NCBI GenBank assembly: GCA_012512505.1
Contig: JAAZEB010000003.1
Coordinates: 1 to 42,756 of the forward strand
DNA: 42,756 bases
Direction of reading: 5' to 3'
From: Armatimonadota bacterium
GTDB taxonomy: Bacteria; Armatimonadota; JAAZEB01
The notes under the pieces were generated by a model. The model ran no database searches. It was not told the origin of the DNA and worked only from the letters and a program-made list of their open reading frames with translations. Below, piece after piece: positions 9,473 to 29,224 of this stretch. The position numbers and the translations under genes are program-made. The stretch's first letter is position 1; each line of letters starts with the position of its first letter.

Positions 9473-11404
9473 TTACCTGTTTTTCGCGGCCGTGGACGCC
9501 GCCGCGGTGCCCGGGATCTTCAATGAGAAGGGTGGCGCCGTGCCAGCGCTGACGGTCACCGGTGTCTCCGCCGCCAGTGCCGCCAGGGGCAGTGGCAGCC
9601 GGACCTCTCCCCGAGCATCGGTTGTTCCCTCGGCGGTCTGCGGGCCTTCGCCGGTCGTGTAGGCAAGCGTCAGTGTGGCCTCGGGCACGGCGTTGCCGTA
9701 GGCATCCACCACCCGGGCACGCACGGTGCCACTGCCGTTGGCGGCCGGCTCCAGGGCCGCGGTCACCCGGGCCGGCGGGCCCGCCACGGTGATCACCTCG
9801 GCCCGCGCCAGGTGCTGTCCGGTGGAGAAGCTCACCGCTCCGGGGCCGGCCCGCATCCCCAGCAGGGTGCCGTCTTGGGTCAGCCGGCCGATCTGTCCCT
9901 CCAGCGCCCAGGTGACGGCATCCTCCGGCAGCTCCTGCCAGGTGCCGTCTGGCTGGCGGCGGGCCGCCCGGAAGCGCACCGGCGAGCCGGCGGTGATGGC
10001 GATCCGGCCGTCGGCGGCGACGGCGCCCTCCGGCGGCAGGAGGGCCAGCTCGCCCTCCTCGGCCGGCGATGGCTCCTCCGTGAATATCAGCACCGCGTTC
10101 GCCACCAGGCGCTGCGTTCCTTGAGAGGGAGAGTTCACCACCACATTGCGGAGCGCGAACGTGGTCGAGCCGCCTCCGTCGAGGTTCATCGCCTCCACCG
10201 CCCCCTCGGCGCGGAGCCACTCCGCCAGCTCCGCCAGGGTGACCCCGCCGCTCAACAGCGGCTGCCGCCCATCCACGGCGACCAGAAGCAGCTTGCCGTC
10301 GCGGGTGAGGGCGATGGCACTGCGCGGGTTGCGGCCGTTCAGCACGTCCGGGCGGAACTGCTCCGGGTTGCCGCCGAGGCAGACCTCGCCGTTCTTGATC
10401 AGGCGCGGGCCGCCCCCCACCGCTTGCCAGACTTCGTTCCAGCTCTGGCCCCCCTCGCCGATCAGGTTGATGCGCAGGCTCACCGCGTCGGCGGTGTTCA
10501 CCGCGCGGAGGAAGTTGGCGGCCGCGCCGTGCCCGGAGAGGACGAAGCCCTCGGGGGGAATCGGGGTGCTCGCCCGCCCGGGGCGGATCTCGGAGACGGT
10601 GCCGGTGACCGCGACGCCGGCGCGCACCGGCCCGCTGGGCCACTCCACCGCCACCTCCACCCCGGCGGCGTTGGCGCCGGTGTTGCTGCCGTAGCGCGGG
10701 GTGTAGACGATCAGTTCGTTGGCGCCGCGCGCCCGGTTTATCCCTTTCACCGGGAAGGAGCGCCCGCCCACGCTCACGGTGGCCTCCAGGCGCACCGGGC
10801 CCCAAAGGGTGCGGCCGTCGCGCGTCAGGCCAAAGGCACAACGGTTGGGATAAGGCTCACTCAGCAGCTCGCCATCCGTGATCTGCAGGCCGAGCGGGTC
10901 GCCGTTGCCGAAGTAGTCGCCGTTGATGGCCGCCAGCGCTCCCCGACGCAGCGCCAGCTTGCCAACGGCCTCCCGGCCCTTCGTCACGTCGGGGGTGATC
11001 AGGACATCTTTGCCCGGCCACACCTGCAGGCGCCAGCCAGGCTGCCGCAGGTCGGCGCGCAGCACGTTGACCACCAGGGGATGCGGCGGCGCTTCCCGTA
11101 CCACCTGCTGGTGCTGGATCCCCGGTGCCACCTGCCGCGTCACCCGCCGTTCGATGGGTGGCGCGGAGGCCGGCGCCGCCGGTGTCTCCGGGGCGTTCTC
11201 GGCCGCGGCCAGGGGGAGGGGTACCGCCGGGGCCGCCAGGAGGGCTGCCAGGAGTAGCCGCCGCCCGCGAGGCGCCAAGGTTGGGGTCAGCCTGAGCAAT
11301 GAGCGGTAGGCAAAGCGGATACGTTTCGCTGGGGATGGGTGGATCGCTGCCAACACCTTGGGGGCCAATCTCCTCTCCGGATAGGTTACCCTATGCCGGA
11401 TCAT
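9473..11404 (-). CDS. Phosphodiester glycosidase-like exported protein (NAGPA/DUF2233) with C-terminal Ig-like domain
   Basis: Up to 643 residues. A signal-like segment (RRLLLAALLAAPAVPLPLAAA, about 48-68) is followed by the NAGPA/DUF2233 domain at about 105-430. Its hallmarks are visible: AAINGDYF (158-165), GGGPRLIKNGE (330-340), RNPRSAIAL (358-366) and NLDGGGSTTF (407-416). The mammalian relative removes GlcNAc from a phosphodiester; bacterial members act on cell-envelope phosphodiesters or glycans. Residues about 450-640 form Ig-like beta domains, the last being invasin/Big1-like (VVDAYGNAVPEATLTLAYT). The start is uncertain: ATG 11404 lacks a good ribosome site and puts 47 residues before the signal, while a GGAGAGGAG (about 11370) could serve in-frame TTG or GTG starts 36-50 bases downstream of 11404. 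It is first in a four-gene unit. Confidence 0.85.
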   Translation of the reverse strand: MIRHRVTYPERRLAPKVLAAIHPSPAKRIRFAYRSLLRLTPTLAPRGRRLLLAALLAAPAVPLPLAAAENAPETPAAPASAPPIERRVTRQVAPGIQHQQVVREAPPHPLVVNVLRADLRQPGWRLQVWPGKDVLITPDVTKGREAVGKLALRRGALAAINGDYFGNGDPLGLQITDGELLSEPYPNRCAFGLTRDGRTLWGPVRLEATVSVGGRSFPVKGINRARGANELIVYTPRYGSNTGANAAGVEVAVEWPSGPVRAGVAVTGTVSEIRPGRASTPIPPEGFVLSGHGAAANFLRAVNTADAVSLRINLIGEGGQSWNEVWQAVGGGPRLIKNGEVCLGGNPEQFRPDVLNGRNPRSAIALTRDGKLLLVAVDGRQPLLSGGVTLAELAEWLRAEGAVEAMNLDGGGSTTFALRNVVVNSPSQGTQRLVANAVLIFTEEPSPAEEGELALLPPEGAVAADGRIAITAGSPVRFRAARRQPDGTWQELPEDAVTWALEGQIGRLTQDGTLLGMRAGPGAVSFSTGQHLARAEVITVAGPPARVTAALEPAANGSGTVRARVVDAYGNAVPEATLTLAYTTGEGPQTAEGTTDARGEVRLPLPLAALAAETPVTVSAGTAPPFSLKIPGTAAASTAAKNR

Positions 11405-11852: not shown

Positions 11853-12257
11853 TAGCAAAGGCTAGCTCGTCGGCCCTTCGGCAACCCGGCTGTCATATCG
11901 GCGCCGCCAGCGACAGCGGTGGAGACGGTGCGCCCGCTCCTGTTTCCCGGCGAATAGCGGCAGCCGACGTAGACCCGTTGCTTTGCGCCCCCTCGTTTCC
12001 TCGGGTTTGCCTTTTCGGGGTTCCCCCCCTCGCCCCCGTTGTGGGGCCAGGCGGGTTCTCCATCCGAGCCTGTCATCTCTGAGACGAGGATGCCCCACGC
12101 TTTGTTCCATTGCCGCGAGGGTGGTTCACTCTGGCACGCGCTGTGCCGTCATCGTGGTGAGAGGGGCGCCGGCATCTTGGGCGTCGGGGTCTGGCCCGCG
12201 CGCGTAAGCCGCGGCGCGGTTGGGTAACCAGGCCAACAGCGGAGCCACGTTTTCCCA

Positions 12258-17207: not shown

Positions 17208-17326
17208 AGCGGCCCTCCGTGCTCCATCGGCTCGCGGAAGGGCCGCTCTCCGTGGCAGGTGGCTGCCGGCTCCCCACCGATCCTGAGCTGCTGCGCCGCG
17301 CCTGATGATTCCGCGGAACCGTCAGG
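17208..17326 (-). terminator. Candidate terminator hairpins after the PEPCK-aminotransferase gene
   Basis: At the gene end, CCTGA (17301-17305) and TCAGG (17322-17326) enclose a perfect palindrome TTCCGCGGAA (17309-17318). Further on, AGCGGCCCT (17208-17216) pairs with AGGGCCGCT (17239-17247). Neither is followed by a clear T-run, so this is a position-based call. Confidence 0.4.
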
Positions 17327-20300
17327 CCTTCTCGGACTTCAGCTCGCGCGCGGCCGTGGCCAGGATGGAGAACAGCTCCGGGAGCTGCTCCAGCTCTACC
17401 GCGGAGAACGCCACGCGGATATCCTGCGGGCCGTCGGCGATCACGCCAACGCCGTAGTTATCCAGCAGGTACTTGCGATAGCGCTCGGCATCCAGGCCCT
17501 TCAGGCGCAGACACATGAAGTAGCCGGCATTGAAGGGGTAGGGGGTCCACAGATCGGCAAAAGCCGGGTTGGTAAGGATCTCCTGCACCTTCTTAGCGCG
17601 TGCCTCCAGGATCTCGCGCTTCTGCTGGCGCTGGGCGGCAAACTGCGCGTCGGCCATCGCTTTCACCAGCACCGACTGCGACGGCTGCGCCCCGTTGGAG
17701 ATGGTGCTGCGAATGGCGCCGGCCACCTTCCGCTCCAGCGCCCCGTAGAGCGCCTCATCGCTGTTGGCGGCCCTGGCGCTGAACGTGAGCATGCCCACGC
17801 GGAAGCCCCACACATACTCCTCTTTTGTTGGCCCATCCACTTTCACCGTCACGATGCGCTCGTGGCAGCCGGCCAGCCGGGCAAACAGCGACTCTTGCAG
17901 CGCGTCTGCCTCATAGAAGAGTCCGAAGTAGGCGTCGTCCGTCACCACCACCAGCTCGCGGCCCTCATCGGCCGCGTCGCGCAGCACGTTCACCAGCGCG
18001 TCCGCCTCGGCTGCCCGGATCGAGTAGCCGGTCGGGTTGTTCGGGAAGTTGAGCACCAGCAGCGCCTTGCCGTCGTCAGTGCGCGACTGCAAAGCATGGC
18101 GCAGGCCTTCGACGTTGAAGCCGCCCTCCTCGTTGAAGAACGGGTAGAGCGCCAACTGCGCCTGCAGGCGCACGCCGAAGAGGAGCTCGTAGTTCTCCCA
18201 GAACTTATCCGGCAGCAGCACCAGGTCGCCCGGGTTCACGAACAGGTCGCCCACCAGGCTGAGGGCATGGGTGACGCCGTTGGTGACGATCGGCGTGGAG
18301 AAGCTCTTGCCGGCCAGGCTGGGGTTCTTCGCCAGCAGTTGCGCGCGCCACTGTGCGCGCAGGTCGGGCCGGCCGGTGGCGGGCGCGTAGGCAAGCGCCT
18401 CCGCCGGCGACAGGTCGGCGAAGTGCTCCATCACCGCCGGGAGGAACATCGGCTTGCCGCCCTCGCGGGCGATGCCGATCGTGGCATCGAAGCGGTGGGC
18501 TTTCTCCTTGGCCTCCGCGCTCTGCGCCAGGATCCCTTTGGGGAAGTAGAGCCGCCGCCCCAGGTCAGACAGCATCTCGTAAAGGGCGGGGTTCTCCTCG
18601 CGCAGCGTCTCGTTCAGCTCCGCGGCCAGCGGCCGCACCTCGGTGCCCGGCTTCAGGAAGTGGACCGGCGCCTCCAGGCGCTGCGACAGTTCCGCGTGCT
18701 GCTGCCACAGCTCCTTCGGCATCCGCGAGCCGATCTTCTCGAAGAAGGTGGTCACCTGCTGGTGCTCTTCCTTCCACTCTTCCCGGTTCACGGCGAACAG
18801 CTTGCGCAGCGTTGGCCGGTCGATGTCCAGGCCGGTGACGTCCAGGCTGTCGGTGGTGGGCACGAAGCCGATCGGGGTTTCCTGGGCATCGGCCTCGTCG
18901 CGGCAGCGCCGCAGAATCCACTCGATCACGCGCAGGTTCTCACCGTAGCCGGGCCACAGGTACTTGCCGTTCTCATCGGTGCGGAACCAGTTGACGTGGA
19001 AGATCTTCGGCGGCTCCGCCAGGCGCTGGCCGACGTCCAGCCAGTGGTGGAAGTAGTCGCCGATGTGGTAGCCGCAGAACGGCAGCATCGCCATCGGGTC
19101 GCGGCGCACCTCTCCCAGGGCGCCGTACTGGGCGGCGGTGCGCTCCGAGGCCATGGTGGCGCCCAGGTAAACGCCGTGCTCCCAGTCGAACGCCTCGCAG
19201 ACGAGCGGCGACAACCGCGACCGCCGGCCACCGAAGATGATCGCCGAGATCGGCACGCCGTGGTGGTGCTCGGTGCGGTACGAGTGCGTCGGGCACTGCG
19301 ACAGCGGCGCGGTAAAGCGGCTGTTCGGGTGGGCCCCGAGGATCGGCTTGCCCTCCTCATCGGTCATTCCCGGATGCCAGGGCCGGCCCTGCCAGTCGAG
19401 CGCCTCGGCCGGGGGCTCGCCTTCGCCATCCTCCCACCAGACGGTGCCGTCGGGCGCCAGCACCACGTTGGTGTAGATGGTGTTCTTGGCGATCGTCTTC
19501 ATCATGTTGGGGTTCGTGCGGCTGTTGGTGCCCGGCGCCACCCCAAAGAAGCCGGTCTCCGGGCTGATCGCCCAGAGGCGGCCGTCGGTGTCGATGCGCA
19601 TCCAGGCGATGTCGTCGCCCACGGTCCAGATCCGGTAGCCCTTGGCTTTCAGGCCCTCCGGCGGCAGCAGCATCGCCAAGTTCGTCTTGCCACAGGCGCT
19701 GGGGAAGGCGGCGGCCACGTACTCGATGCGGCCGTTCGGCTCCTCGATCCCCATGATGAGCATGTGCTCGGCCAACCAGCCCTCGCGCTTGCCCAGGTAG
19801 CTGGCGATGCGCAGTGCCAGGCACTTCTTGCCCAGCAGCACGTTGCCGCCGTACCCCGAGCCAACGCTCCAGATCGTGTTGTCCTCGGGAAAGTGCAAAA
19901 TGAGCCGGCGCTTGATGTCCAGGTCCGCTTTGCTGTGCACGCAGCGGGTGAACTGGCCGCCGGTGCCGAGTTGCTTCAGCACCGCTTTACCCACGCGGGT
20001 CATGATCCGCATGTTCAGCACCACGTAGATGCTATCGGTCAGCTCCACGCCAATCTTGCTGAAGGGAGACCCCACCGGCCCCATGCTGAAGGGGATCACG
20101 TACATCGTGCGGCCGCGCATCGCGCCGGCAAGAATCTCGCCGGCACGGCGGTAGCCTTCCTCGGGCGACATCCAGTTGTTGGTCGGGCCGGCGTCTTCCC
20201 GCAGGCGCGTGCAGATGTAGGTCAAATCCTCAGTACGGGCCACGTCGTTGGCCGCCGTGCGGTGGTAGACGCAGCCGGGCAGTTTCTCCTGATTCAGCGG

Positions 20301-20441
20301 CAGCAGTTCTCCCGTGCTCAACGCTTCCTGCGTCAGCCGGTCTTTCTCCTCCTCCGACCCATCGATCCAGACGATCTTGTCCGGCTGACACAGCCGCGCC
20401 ATTTCCTGGACCCAGGCATTCAGCTCACTATGGTCACTCAC
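17322..20441 (-). CDS. Fusion protein: GTP-dependent PEP carboxykinase + class I/II PLP aminotransferase
   Basis: One uninterrupted 1039-codon frame holds two enzymes. Residues 1 to about 592 are a complete GTP-type PEP carboxykinase: LLGKKCLALRIAS (202-214, metal-ligand Lys), GWLAEHMLIMGI (221-232, metal-ligand H226), P-loop FPSACGKTNLAML (246-258) with reactive C250, VGDDIAWMR (274-282, D277), GFFGVAPGTN (297-306), and FHVNWFRTDENGKYLWPGYG (481-500). A short helical linker follows. Residues about 610-1039 are a fold-type I aminotransferase: TNGVTHALSLVGDLF (720-734), NFPNNPTGYS (798-807), VVTDDAYFGLFY (832-843), PLP lysine K873 in DGPTKEEYVWGFRVG (869-883), and IRVAFS with R1009 near the C-terminus. 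The first enzyme interconverts oxaloacetate + GTP and PEP + CO2 + GDP. If the second uses aspartate, the pair links aspartate to PEP. The start is GTG at 20441 with GGGAAGG 5 bases upstream. Cytoplasmic. Confidence 0.95.
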   Translation of the reverse strand: MSDHSELNAWVQEMARLCQPDKIVWIDGSEEEKDRLTQEALSTGELLPLNQEKLPGCVYHRTAANDVARTEDLTYICTRLREDAGPTNNWMSPEEGYRRAGEILAGAMRGRTMYVIPFSMGPVGSPFSKIGVELTDSIYVVLNMRIMTRVGKAVLKQLGTGGQFTRCVHSKADLDIKRRLILHFPEDNTIWSVGSGYGGNVLLGKKCLALRIASYLGKREGWLAEHMLIMGIEEPNGRIEYVAAAFPSACGKTNLAMLLPPEGLKAKGYRIWTVGDDIAWMRIDTDGRLWAISPETGFFGVAPGTNSRTNPNMMKTIAKNTIYTNVVLAPDGTVWWEDGEGEPPAEALDWQGRPWHPGMTDEEGKPILGAHPNSRFTAPLSQCPTHSYRTEHHHGVPISAIIFGGRRSRLSPLVCEAFDWEHGVYLGATMASERTAAQYGALGEVRRDPMAMLPFCGYHIGDYFHHWLDVGQRLAEPPKIFHVNWFRTDENGKYLWPGYGENLRVIEWILRRCRDEADAQETPIGFVPTTDSLDVTGLDIDRPTLRKLFAVNREEWKEEHQQVTTFFEKIGSRMPKELWQQHAELSQRLEAPVHFLKPGTEVRPLAAELNETLREENPALYEMLSDLGRRLYFPKGILAQSAEAKEKAHRFDATIGIAREGGKPMFLPAVMEHFADLSPAEALAYAPATGRPDLRAQWRAQLLAKNPSLAGKSFSTPIVTNGVTHALSLVGDLFVNPGDLVLLPDKFWENYELLFGVRLQAQLALYPFFNEEGGFNVEGLRHALQSRTDDGKALLVLNFPNNPTGYSIRAAEADALVNVLRDAADEGRELVVVTDDAYFGLFYEADALQESLFARLAGCHERIVTVKVDGPTKEEYVWGFRVGMLTFSARAANSDEALYGALERKVAGAIRSTISNGAQPSQSVLVKAMADAQFAAQRQQKREILEARAKKVQEILTNPAFADLWTPYPFNAGYFMCLRLKGLDAERYRKYLLDNYGVGVIADGPQDIRVAFSAVELEQLPELFSILATAARELKSEKA

Positions 20442-20759: not shown

Positions 20760-21464
20760 ATGAGCGGGAAATGGATCTGCATCATCTTCGCCCTGGCTGT
20801 GCCCGTCCTGGTCGGGGCGGCCGAGAATGAGAGGGGCCGGGTGATCCGGCCGTTCAACGGCAAGGACCTAACCGGCTGGAAAACCCGGGCCCAGGGCGAG
20901 AACACGAACTGCTGGGTGGTTGGCAAAGCAAAGGTTGCCGCCGATCCCAAGGCGCTGGAGGTGGAAGCGGGCGGCAGGGAGCTGATCAACCACCCCGAGT
21001 GGGGCAAGAGCCTGGATCTCTACACCGAGCAGAAGTTCGGCGACTGCCGGGTGGAGGTGGAGGTGATGGTGCCGCAGGGCTCCAACTCCGGCATCTACCT
21101 GATGGGCGAGTACGAGGTGCAGGTGTGCGACAGCTTCGGCCGAGAAGAGATCGGCCAGGGTGACATGGGGAGCATCTACAGCGCGGCGACGGCGGCCAAG
21201 AACGTGTCGCGCAAGCCAGGCGAGTGGCAGAGGTTCGTGATCGACTTCCGCGCCCCCCGCTTCGATGCCCAGGGCAACAAGATCGCCAACGCCATGTTCG
21301 TGAAGGTGACCCTGAACGGCGTGGTGATCCGCGAGAACGTAGAGGTGAAGGGCTCCACCGGGGGCGGCTTGACGGGTGAGGAGCACCCCACCGGCCCGCT
21401 GATGCTCCAGGGCAACCACGGCGCCGTCGCCTACCGCAACCTGCGCATCATCCCGGCGCGCTAA
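20760..21464 (+). CDS. Exported DUF1080 (3-keto-disaccharide hydrolase domain) protein
   Basis: A 234-residue protein with a signal peptide (MSGKWICIIFALAVPVLVGAAEN, 1-23). The rest is one DUF1080 jelly-roll: FNGKDLTGWK (33-42), FGDCRVEVEVMVPQGSNSGIY (about 93-113), YEVQVCDSFG, and the C-terminal GPLMLQGNHGAVAYRNLRI. DUF1080 proteins are named for hydrolysis of 3-keto-glycosides formed by Gfo/Idh/MocA-type dehydrogenases, two of which are encoded in this window. AAGGAGG sits 5 bases before the ATG. It is a single gene, divergent from the PEPCK fusion and followed by a repeat-filled gap. Confidence 0.92.
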   Translation: MSGKWICIIFALAVPVLVGAAENERGRVIRPFNGKDLTGWKTRAQGENTNCWVVGKAKVAADPKALEVEAGGRELINHPEWGKSLDLYTEQKFGDCRVEVEVMVPQGSNSGIYLMGEYEVQVCDSFGREEIGQGDMGSIYSAATAAKNVSRKPGEWQRFVIDFRAPRFDAQGNKIANAMFVKVTLNGVVIRENVEVKGSTGGGLTGEEHPTGPLMLQGNHGAVAYRNLRIIPAR

Positions 21465-21777
21465 ACCGGCGAACCAGTGCGCGCCCGACGCCTCCTACAC
21501 CGGGGGCGCATTCCGACGACCGCGGTCGGATCGCCGGCGGCCTACTCTACTCGCCAGCCGGCGTAGGAGGCGTCCGACGCCTGGGAGATGTTACTCCTCC
21601 AGGAGGGATGGCCGGAGTGCCCGAGCCATCGGGCTTCACACTGTTAGGAAGCCGCATGGCTGCGGCGCTCCGTTGCTCTCTCAGGAGATAGCCGGAGTGC
21701 CCGAGCCATCGGGCTTCTGCCAGGCGGCCGCGTCGCCGCGGCACCCCCGCTGCGCTACCCTCGGGCATGGAGGGCTC
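21465..21777. repeat. Repeat-rich intergenic region with paired double-hairpin units
   Basis: No gene is seen in this gap between convergent genes. GACGCCTCCTACACCGG (21487-21503) pairs at 16 of 17 positions with 21558-21574, enclosing TCCGAC/GTCGGA. Next come two units 80 bases apart, each starting with an identical 27-base stretch (21611-21637 and 21691-21717) that contains the hairpin GCCCGA-gcca-TCGGGC. Each unit then has a second hairpin, GCCGCA-tggc-TGCGGC (21651-21666) in the first and GCCGCG-tcgc-CGCGGC (21727-21742) in the second; the stem change is compensated on both sides. The region may also terminate transcription from both sides. Confidence 0.75.
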
Positions 21778-22626
21778 CTACGAGGGGCTGATGGGTGGCC
21801 CGGCCTGTTCGGCCGCCTCCAGAAGCTGGCGGCCGAACTCGCGGGCGCTGAAGAGGGTGCGCCGCAGGCCGCCGGCCTTCTCGATCAGGCCCAGGTCCAG
21901 GTCGGCAAAGAGGAAATCCTCCTGGTGGCGCCGGCTGCGGACCACCATCTCGCCGAAGGGGTCCAGTAGGTAGCTATCGCCGTAACCGACGCCATCGTAG
22001 CTCATGCCGGCATCGCGGCCGAAGGTGACGTTGTTGCCGCGCAGGAAGTAAACGCCGTTCTCGGTGGCGCGGGCGATATGGTCGCTGCGCACGTGCTGGA
22101 AATGGGTGAGCAGATACTCCTTGCTGATGTAGTTGTAGTGGGGCGAGAAGATTACCTGGGCCCCCTTGAGCGCCAGAATGCGCGTCGGTTCGATGTAACC
22201 GCCATCGGCACAGATCACGATCCCGAACCGCAGGCCCTCTCGCTCGAAGACCGGGAAGTCGCGCCCTTGCCGGTGGAACGGTAGGTAGGCGCACGACTTG
22301 CTGTAGGTGCCCAGCAGTTGGCCGCGCTCGATCACCGCCGCCGTGTTGTAGAGATCCGCCCCGCGCCGTTCGTTGAAGCCGACGATGAGGGTGGCCGGGA
22401 AGCGCCGAGTCTGCTCCCGCACCGCCTCCATCTGGGGCGAGTCGACGGCGAAGGCGTGCCGGCGCGCTTCTGACTCCTGGTCTTGGTAGCCGGTCAGGAA
22501 ACACTCCGGCAGGCTGACGATCGCCACGCGGTTCGCCTCCGCCAGCTCCAGCGCCTCGACCACCTTCGCCAGGTTCGCCTCGAACTCGCCCGGCCGGCAC
22601 GCGCACTGATAGTGACCGATCCGCAT
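21778..22626 (-). CDS. Carbon-nitrogen hydrolase (nitrilase superfamily)
   Basis: A 282-residue protein of the usual length. The catalytic Glu-Lys-Cys triad is visible: VSLPECFLTGY (E41), GTYSKSCAYLPFH (K110) and GIVICADGGYIEPTRIL (C139). Members hydrolyse amides such as N-carbamoyl compounds, deaminated glutathione or nitriles; the substrate here is not predictable. No signal peptide is present, so it is cytoplasmic. The frame is open 50 codons further upstream, but the ATG at 22626 fits family starts (MRIGHYQCACRPGEFEANLAK) and follows a purine-rich GGAGGAAGG...GGGG ribosome region. It is divergent from the GH2 gene (165 bases apart). Confidence 0.92.
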   Translation of the reverse strand: MRIGHYQCACRPGEFEANLAKVVEALELAEANRVAIVSLPECFLTGYQDQESEARRHAFAVDSPQMEAVREQTRRFPATLIVGFNERRGADLYNTAAVIERGQLLGTYSKSCAYLPFHRQGRDFPVFEREGLRFGIVICADGGYIEPTRILALKGAQVIFSPHYNYISKEYLLTHFQHVRSDHIARATENGVYFLRGNNVTFGRDAGMSYDGVGYGDSYLLDPFGEMVVRSRRHQEDFLFADLDLGLIEKAGGLRRTLFSAREFGRQLLEAAEQAGPPISPS

Positions 22627-28903: not shown

Positions 28904-29224
28904 GCGGTGCTCTCCTGTGTCGTAGGTTGCGTCAGACGCATCGCAGAAGGGGTGCCCTGGCAGCGCGGTTTCTCCCATAGCCGCGCTGCCTGCCCACGGA
29001 CCCTCCTGCCGCCGGCGTGGGCCCATCGTATCCCGAATCGCCGCCAGTGTCAAGGATGGCCTCCGCCGATGGGCCGGATCGCCGGCGTCCCGCCGGCTCC
29101 CGCCAGAGGCGCGAGGGCCAACGTCGGCCAGGGCTTGCCGGCAAGCCGCCGGCGCACCGACCGTGGCCGCCGGAATGCGCCTGGAGGGTCGGCGCGCCGC
29201 GGCTCTCCCGGACAGGCTCTGGGT
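28904..29224. other. Intergenic region with hairpins, no gene seen
   Basis: Between two minus-strand genes. It holds GTAGGTTGCGTCAGACGCA (28922-28940), whose TGCGTC/GACGCA halves pair, and a perfect 16-base palindrome GGCTTGCCGGCAAGCC (29132-29147). The palindrome is 77 bases beyond the stop of the DUF4838 gene and may be a terminator or a binding site. No open frame here has a ribosome site. Confidence 0.55.

Follow-up and report, generated by a model that had tools for sequence, protein, structure and literature searches.

The array and its surroundings

The window, the whole 42,756-nucleotide stretch analysed here, is contig C230 of the Armatimonadota genome G000 (assembly of 5.66 Mb in 396 contigs, 96.9% complete). 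In the gap where two convergent genes end, it carries a two-unit array, each unit with a hairpin A and a hairpin B, and ahead of the units lies a mosaic head (table 1). The sequence-only reading had described two units 80 bases apart that share an identical 27-base stretch; this 27-mer, GCCGGAGTGCCCGAGCCATCGGGCTTC, is indeed exact at 21611-21637 and 21691-21717, has no match across 100 dinucleotide shuffles, and belongs to a longer shared stretch in which 30 of 31 bases are identical between the units. The two hairpins that the same reading gave to each unit were recovered, A at 21619-21634 and 21699-21714, B at 21651-21666 and 21727-21742, as was the A-T to G-C change on both arms of hairpin B (GCCGCA-TGGC-TGCGGC in unit 1, GCCGCG-TCGC-CGCGGC in unit 2). 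Ahead of the units, a 17-base inverted repeat had also been reported; checked by eye, 21487-21503 pairs with 21558-21574 at 16 of 17 positions, and a repeat search gave 23-nt arms (21481-21503 and 21558-21580; 87% complementary). Its second arm falls in palindrome GGCGTAGGAGGCGTCCGACGCC of the head; in this array as in others (C12, C72, C136, C230), 53-54 bases separate this palindrome from the first hairpin A downstream. The 19-mer GTAGGAGGCGTCNGACGCC was considered as a GTAG REP family of its own (26 matches, control 3) and rejected as such: its distance to hairpin A is constant in several arrays, and it is therefore part of the mosaic head.

Table 1. Features of the array and its flanking genes (positions in the window)
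Feature	Position	Strand	Basis
Left neighbour: 3-keto-disaccharide hydrolase gene (PF06439), ends just before the array	20760-21464	+	Pfam; gene model
Outer arm of the inverted repeat, including the 17 bases GACGCCTCCTACACCGG	21481-21503	-	Repeat search
Second REP class, degenerate copy (GGTCGGATCGCCGGCG...), mosaic head	21525-21560	+	Sequence against head consensus
Head palindrome GGCGTAGGAGGCGTCCGACGCC	21561-21582	+	Position relative to hairpin A; head consensus
REP A, unit 1: GGAG-T-GCCCGA(GCCA)TCGGGC-TTC	21614-21637	+	Sequence, repeat search, shuffles
Short linker, A to B	21638-21647	.	Sequence; linker statistics
REP B, unit 1 (inverted REP): GGAG-C-GCCGCA(GCCA)TGCGGC-TTC on the minus strand	21648-21671	-	Sequence, genome-wide matches
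Long linker, B to next A	21672-21693	.	Sequence; linker statistics
REP A, unit 2, identical to unit 1	21694-21717	+	Repeat search, shuffles
Hairpin B variant, unit 2: GCCGCG(TCGC)CGCGGC, array-end form, then shortened tail	21727-21742	-	Sequence, variant counts
Right neighbour: carbon-nitrogen hydrolase gene (PF00795), convergent, ends just past the array	21778-22626	-	Pfam; gene model

Elsewhere in the window, the minus strand encodes at 17322-20441 a fusion of a GTP-type PEP carboxykinase with a class I/II aminotransferase (Pfam PEPCK, residues 10-588; Aminotran_1_2, 666-1024). Essentially the whole fusion is matched in 25 of the 80 loci retained, in MAGs with Armatimonadetes or planctomycete names, and most other loci among these 80 match the PEPCK part only; the best named matches are Armatimonadetes metagenome genomes (82%, 78%, and 77%), and planctomycete genomes reach ~76% among the full-length ones. 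A c-di-GMP-I riboswitch (61.6 bits; 11877-12021, minus strand) lies upstream of the gene for a phosphodiester glycosidase (NAGPA; 9473-11404), and has an unusually long stem insert, 62 bases compared with 4 in the consensus. The second REP class recurs at 29072-29162, as an inverted pair between two genes.

Copy number, alternation, and siting

The sequence-only reading had proposed a genome search for further copies and had taken a failure to find any as evidence against it; the search returned hundreds, mostly between genes. Hairpin A has 348 matches as a 22-mer at up to three mismatches, with none for the reversed-pattern control, and 369 as a shorter 18-mer at the same tolerance (control 12); hairpin B has 281 (control 3) and the palindrome of the second REP class 289 (control 0). 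Among the repeats assembled from 91 non-redundant loci, the 80-base unit is the most widespread. At 24 bases and with these copy numbers, the element falls within the definition of a REP (a palindrome of ~20-50 bases in more than 100 copies).

B is A inverted, both reading (C)GGAG-Y-GCC[CG or GC]AGCNAT[CG or GC]GGC-TTC on opposite strands, and the two alternate strictly. Among the loci retrieved from the genome, which hold 359 REPs (up to four mismatches) in 110 arrays, 249 successive REP pairs were counted: 139 are +-, 104 are -+, and six lie on the same strand (three ++, three --). The gap is 15 or 16 bases in 108 of the 139 +- pairs and 22-24 bases in 100 of the 104 -+ pairs, with a unit spacing of mostly 79-81. 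When the 99 arrays holding an A copy are oriented by it (11 of the 110 have none and are omitted), A is + in 185 of 188 cases and B is - in 150 of 160. Alternating REPs, regular linkers, and tandem units, the features of a BIME, are all present. The tag is CGGAG at the 5' side, neither CGTC nor GTAG, the commonest REP tag; it is kept in 90-98% of A and B copies, against 58-91% for TTC on the 3' side. Its GAG may pair imperfectly with TTC, in which case the tag would not be cleanly unpaired. The array thus fits the REP and BIME definitions, except for a differing tag that may be partly paired.

Arrays may also carry conserved ends: 21 heads and 34 tails were found, of which 13 form head-tail pairs no more than 500 bases apart. 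Such heads and tails, common to many loci, could point to a composite, MITE-like element, in which inverted second-class REPs GGTCGGATCGCCGGCGTCCCGCCGGC bound a longer unit, the 80-base units are a variable tandem repeat inside it, and a transposase of another family moves the whole. Palindrome GGTCGGATCGCCGGCGTCCCGCCGGC is found + oriented upstream of 15 of the 21 heads and - oriented downstream of 10 of the 34 tails. Most tails, however, have no such palindrome on their distal side within 300 bases, A and B also occur as single copies, and the search, which covered Y1_Tnp/RAYT, identified no matching transposase; we regard such a composite as quite unlikely.

The arrays are extragenic. With self-trained gene calls and starts picked by score, a single REP of 323 (up to three mismatches) lies in predicted coding sequence, although ~78% of the examined sequence is coding. 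At up to four mismatches 17 of 359 do, as do 9 of 10 control matches; the REP set was tightened to three because the reversed control gave chance matches at four. A cruder first gene model, which took the earliest start codon and placed 84 of 364 REPs in genes, was replaced by the score-picked starts. Called genes flank 73 of the 93 arrays on both sides (23 convergent, 7 divergent, 43 tandem), the other 20 having no called gene on one side and being left out of this tally. Between tandem genes, the median distance from the array to the stop upstream is shorter than that to the following start (101 vs 195, p 8e-6); the excess of convergent over divergent gaps is not significant against REP-free gaps (25/11 vs 22/19, p 0.17, looser REP set). 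Overall, arrays favour gene 3' ends.

Stem changes and the fold

Stem pairs 8-17 and 9-16 are Watson-Crick in 329 and 334 of the 359 REPs, against 174 and 177 if the positions were independent, and swap C-G to G-C jointly between A and B. Because this A-versus-B difference is one two-state contrast copied many times, most of these covariation cells are not independent events. Within B, the loop-adjacent pair 10-15 is AT in 117 copies, GC in 16, GT in 11, and AC in 4 (odds ratio 43). The G-C variant, seen in 16 of 157 B copies, comprises 13 distinct sequences, and G-T intermediates are present; the retrieval pattern scores both G-C changes as mismatches and is therefore biased against this result. 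The A-T to G-C change at the locus is one instance of this recurrent B variant, and the palindrome is kept through compensatory stem changes.

These compensatory changes, the position near gene 3' ends, and a 306-base region that folds better than all 100 of its dinucleotide shuffles (z -5.2 on the + strand, -4.7 on the -) are also compatible with selection at each locus for a structured RNA, regulatory or non-coding, be it an attenuator, a terminator, or an sRNA. Yet no Rfam family reaches its gathering score in the region (below-threshold matches, E 0.41-8.8), both strands fold about equally, as is typical of palindromic DNA, and hundreds of copies lie beside different genes. Neither a T-run terminator nor a promoter-like site was found, and a terminator or promoter reading was rejected on that ground. 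An RNA selected locus by locus is, in our view, very improbable. A kissing loop between A and B was likewise considered and dropped: only 25 of the 123 listed A-B pairs have complementary loops, so no kissing pair is kept. The sequence-only reading had left a choice between selection on structure and a mobile repeat family whose copies fold. Hundreds of intergenic copies with compensatory stems argue, at the level of sequence, for the mobile family; selection on structure, taken to mean a cis-acting or non-coding RNA at this locus, is not supported, given the Rfam result, the alternation of both orientations, and copies that track intergenic space instead of one gene.

Relatives, RAYT genes, and contig ends

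Hairpin A has at most three matches in every one of 60 relatives, the nearest genomes compared being other genera of the same family. The second REP class, sought in 30 relatives, has six matches in G007, one in G021, and none elsewhere, both same-family genomes included. REP families are commonly lineage-specific. Relatives lacking the stems had been listed in the sequence-only reading beside an absence of other copies as speaking against it; the repeat is indeed nearly absent from relatives, but other copies do exist in the genome.

Y1_Tnp is present in 41 of 61 genomes searched, including both of the same family. In the window's own genome (96.9% complete, 396 contigs), Pfam gave no match to the RAYT domain (Y1_Tnp, PF01797), and a profile built from the RAYTs of four relatives reached only 12.5 bits at best (E 0.29), within a frame of 516 aa. 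The arrangement of a REPIN-RAYT system, in which a Y1_Tnp gene has copies of its own genome's REP on either side, was not found in this assembly. In the same-family genome G001, a Y1_Tnp gene (L154 1941-2381, contig C105; best E 4.8e-23) sits among four copies of palindrome CGCGCGGAGCTGGAAGCTCCGCGC, which has 140 matches in that genome and none in the window's genome or in G002, the other member of the family. This arrangement resembles the window array in being a high-copy hairpin repeat within the same taxonomic family; yet the palindrome differs in sequence from the window's REPs and is absent from the window's genome. In G002 a Y1_Tnp gene lies between 58-base inverted arms with 93% complementarity; apart from these, their palindrome is close to unique (three matches). 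Y1_Tnp genes with flanking palindromes thus occur in the family, each genome having its own palindrome. G002 also contains, at L153 1678-1792, a pair of 57-base direct repeats spaced 58 apart; both carry a CGGAGC-tagged hairpin (GCCCG..CGGGC), possibly a relative of the window REP in a sister genus.

In the window's genome, contigs C21, C41, C49, C54, C69, C106, C110, C164, C166, and C199 start in or next to arrays, and C23, C30, C157, C161, C187, and C206 end there. Repeats therefore probably fragment the (short-read) assembly, and with so many contig ends at arrays, loss of a RAYT gene from the assembly is a live alternative to its true loss. Many contigs starting (e.g., C41, C49, C110, C164) or ending (C30, C157, C161, C187, C206) at arrays would also suit tandem duplication that arose passively at a few places and was then multiplied by an assembly or binning artefact. 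The 91 non-redundant loci have different flanks, however, and arrays also lie inside contigs, as in the window, which leaves an artefact hardly credible.

Interpretation and comparison with known REP systems

On the observed sequence, copy number, alternation, intergenic siting, 3'-end preference, compensatory stems, and near absence from relatives, we consider it very probable that the locus is a two-unit BIME (REP A on the + strand, REP B on the -, with a short and a long linker), set in a mosaic with a second REP class and of RAYT-type origin. Under such a model, the REPs would be non-autonomous DNA repeats that a RAYT-type (Y1, HUH) transposase copied in the form of single-stranded hairpins, reading the GGAG-tagged hairpin on one strand; the tandem units would have grown by local amplification, and the palindrome would be retained because the folded strand is the substrate. 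As no RAYT was found in the assembly, the gene would either have been lost after the expansion or be located in an unassembled stretch. By analogy, hairpins past the stop codons would be included in transcripts of the flanking genes and may affect transcript ends or stability. Judged by its sequence features, the array would work like a REP/BIME, with membership of a RAYT-driven system as a candidate assignment. It is fairly unlikely, instead, that at least two CGGAG-type REP classes at ~300 or more copies without a RAYT of their own owe their spread or maintenance to a different enzyme, or to replication and repair alone.

The BIMEs of E. coli and Stenotrophomonas, as described in PMC2817692, consist of alternating, regularly spaced REPs, from doublets to multi-unit arrays, whose stems vary by complementary changes. 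The window arrays share this alternation, spacing, and pattern of stem change, but their repeat is unrelated in sequence, a cognate RAYT was not found, and they belong to mosaics that also contain a second class of REP, a conserved head, and a conserved tail. The GTAG- and CGTC-tagged super-families, according to the main text of PMC3733652, are palindromes of 20-40 bases with a conserved tetranucleotide at one end that prefer gaps between unidirectional and convergent genes, the CGTC REPs being without a dedicated transposase. The window REPs are similar in palindrome size, end tag, and placement, and in lacking a dedicated transposase as CGTC REPs do; their tag is CGGAG, however, and words beginning GGAG are absent from that main text. 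REPINs with RAYT comprise two inverted REPs around a short spacer (PMC8049555), and the window's inverted REP pair and short spacer can likewise fold as one long ssDNA hairpin, although, in contrast to REPIN-RAYT systems as presented there, the RAYT gene was not found in the window's assembly. E. coli genomes without RAYT still retain REPINs, and spread or maintenance by a different enzyme, or by replication and repair alone, has already been considered for CGTC-tagged REPs.

In the literature searched, whose coverage was limited, we found no report of REPs in Armatimonadota (Armatimonadetes). Our findings add an Armatimonadota genome to those with REP/BIME mosaics, here with strictly alternating REPs and two classes of linker. 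Within one family, a genome with a RAYT flanked by its own palindrome stands against a genome in which two REP classes give ~900 matches and a RAYT was not found, a contrast that makes it testable by what means REPs spread and are maintained when the transposase is missing.
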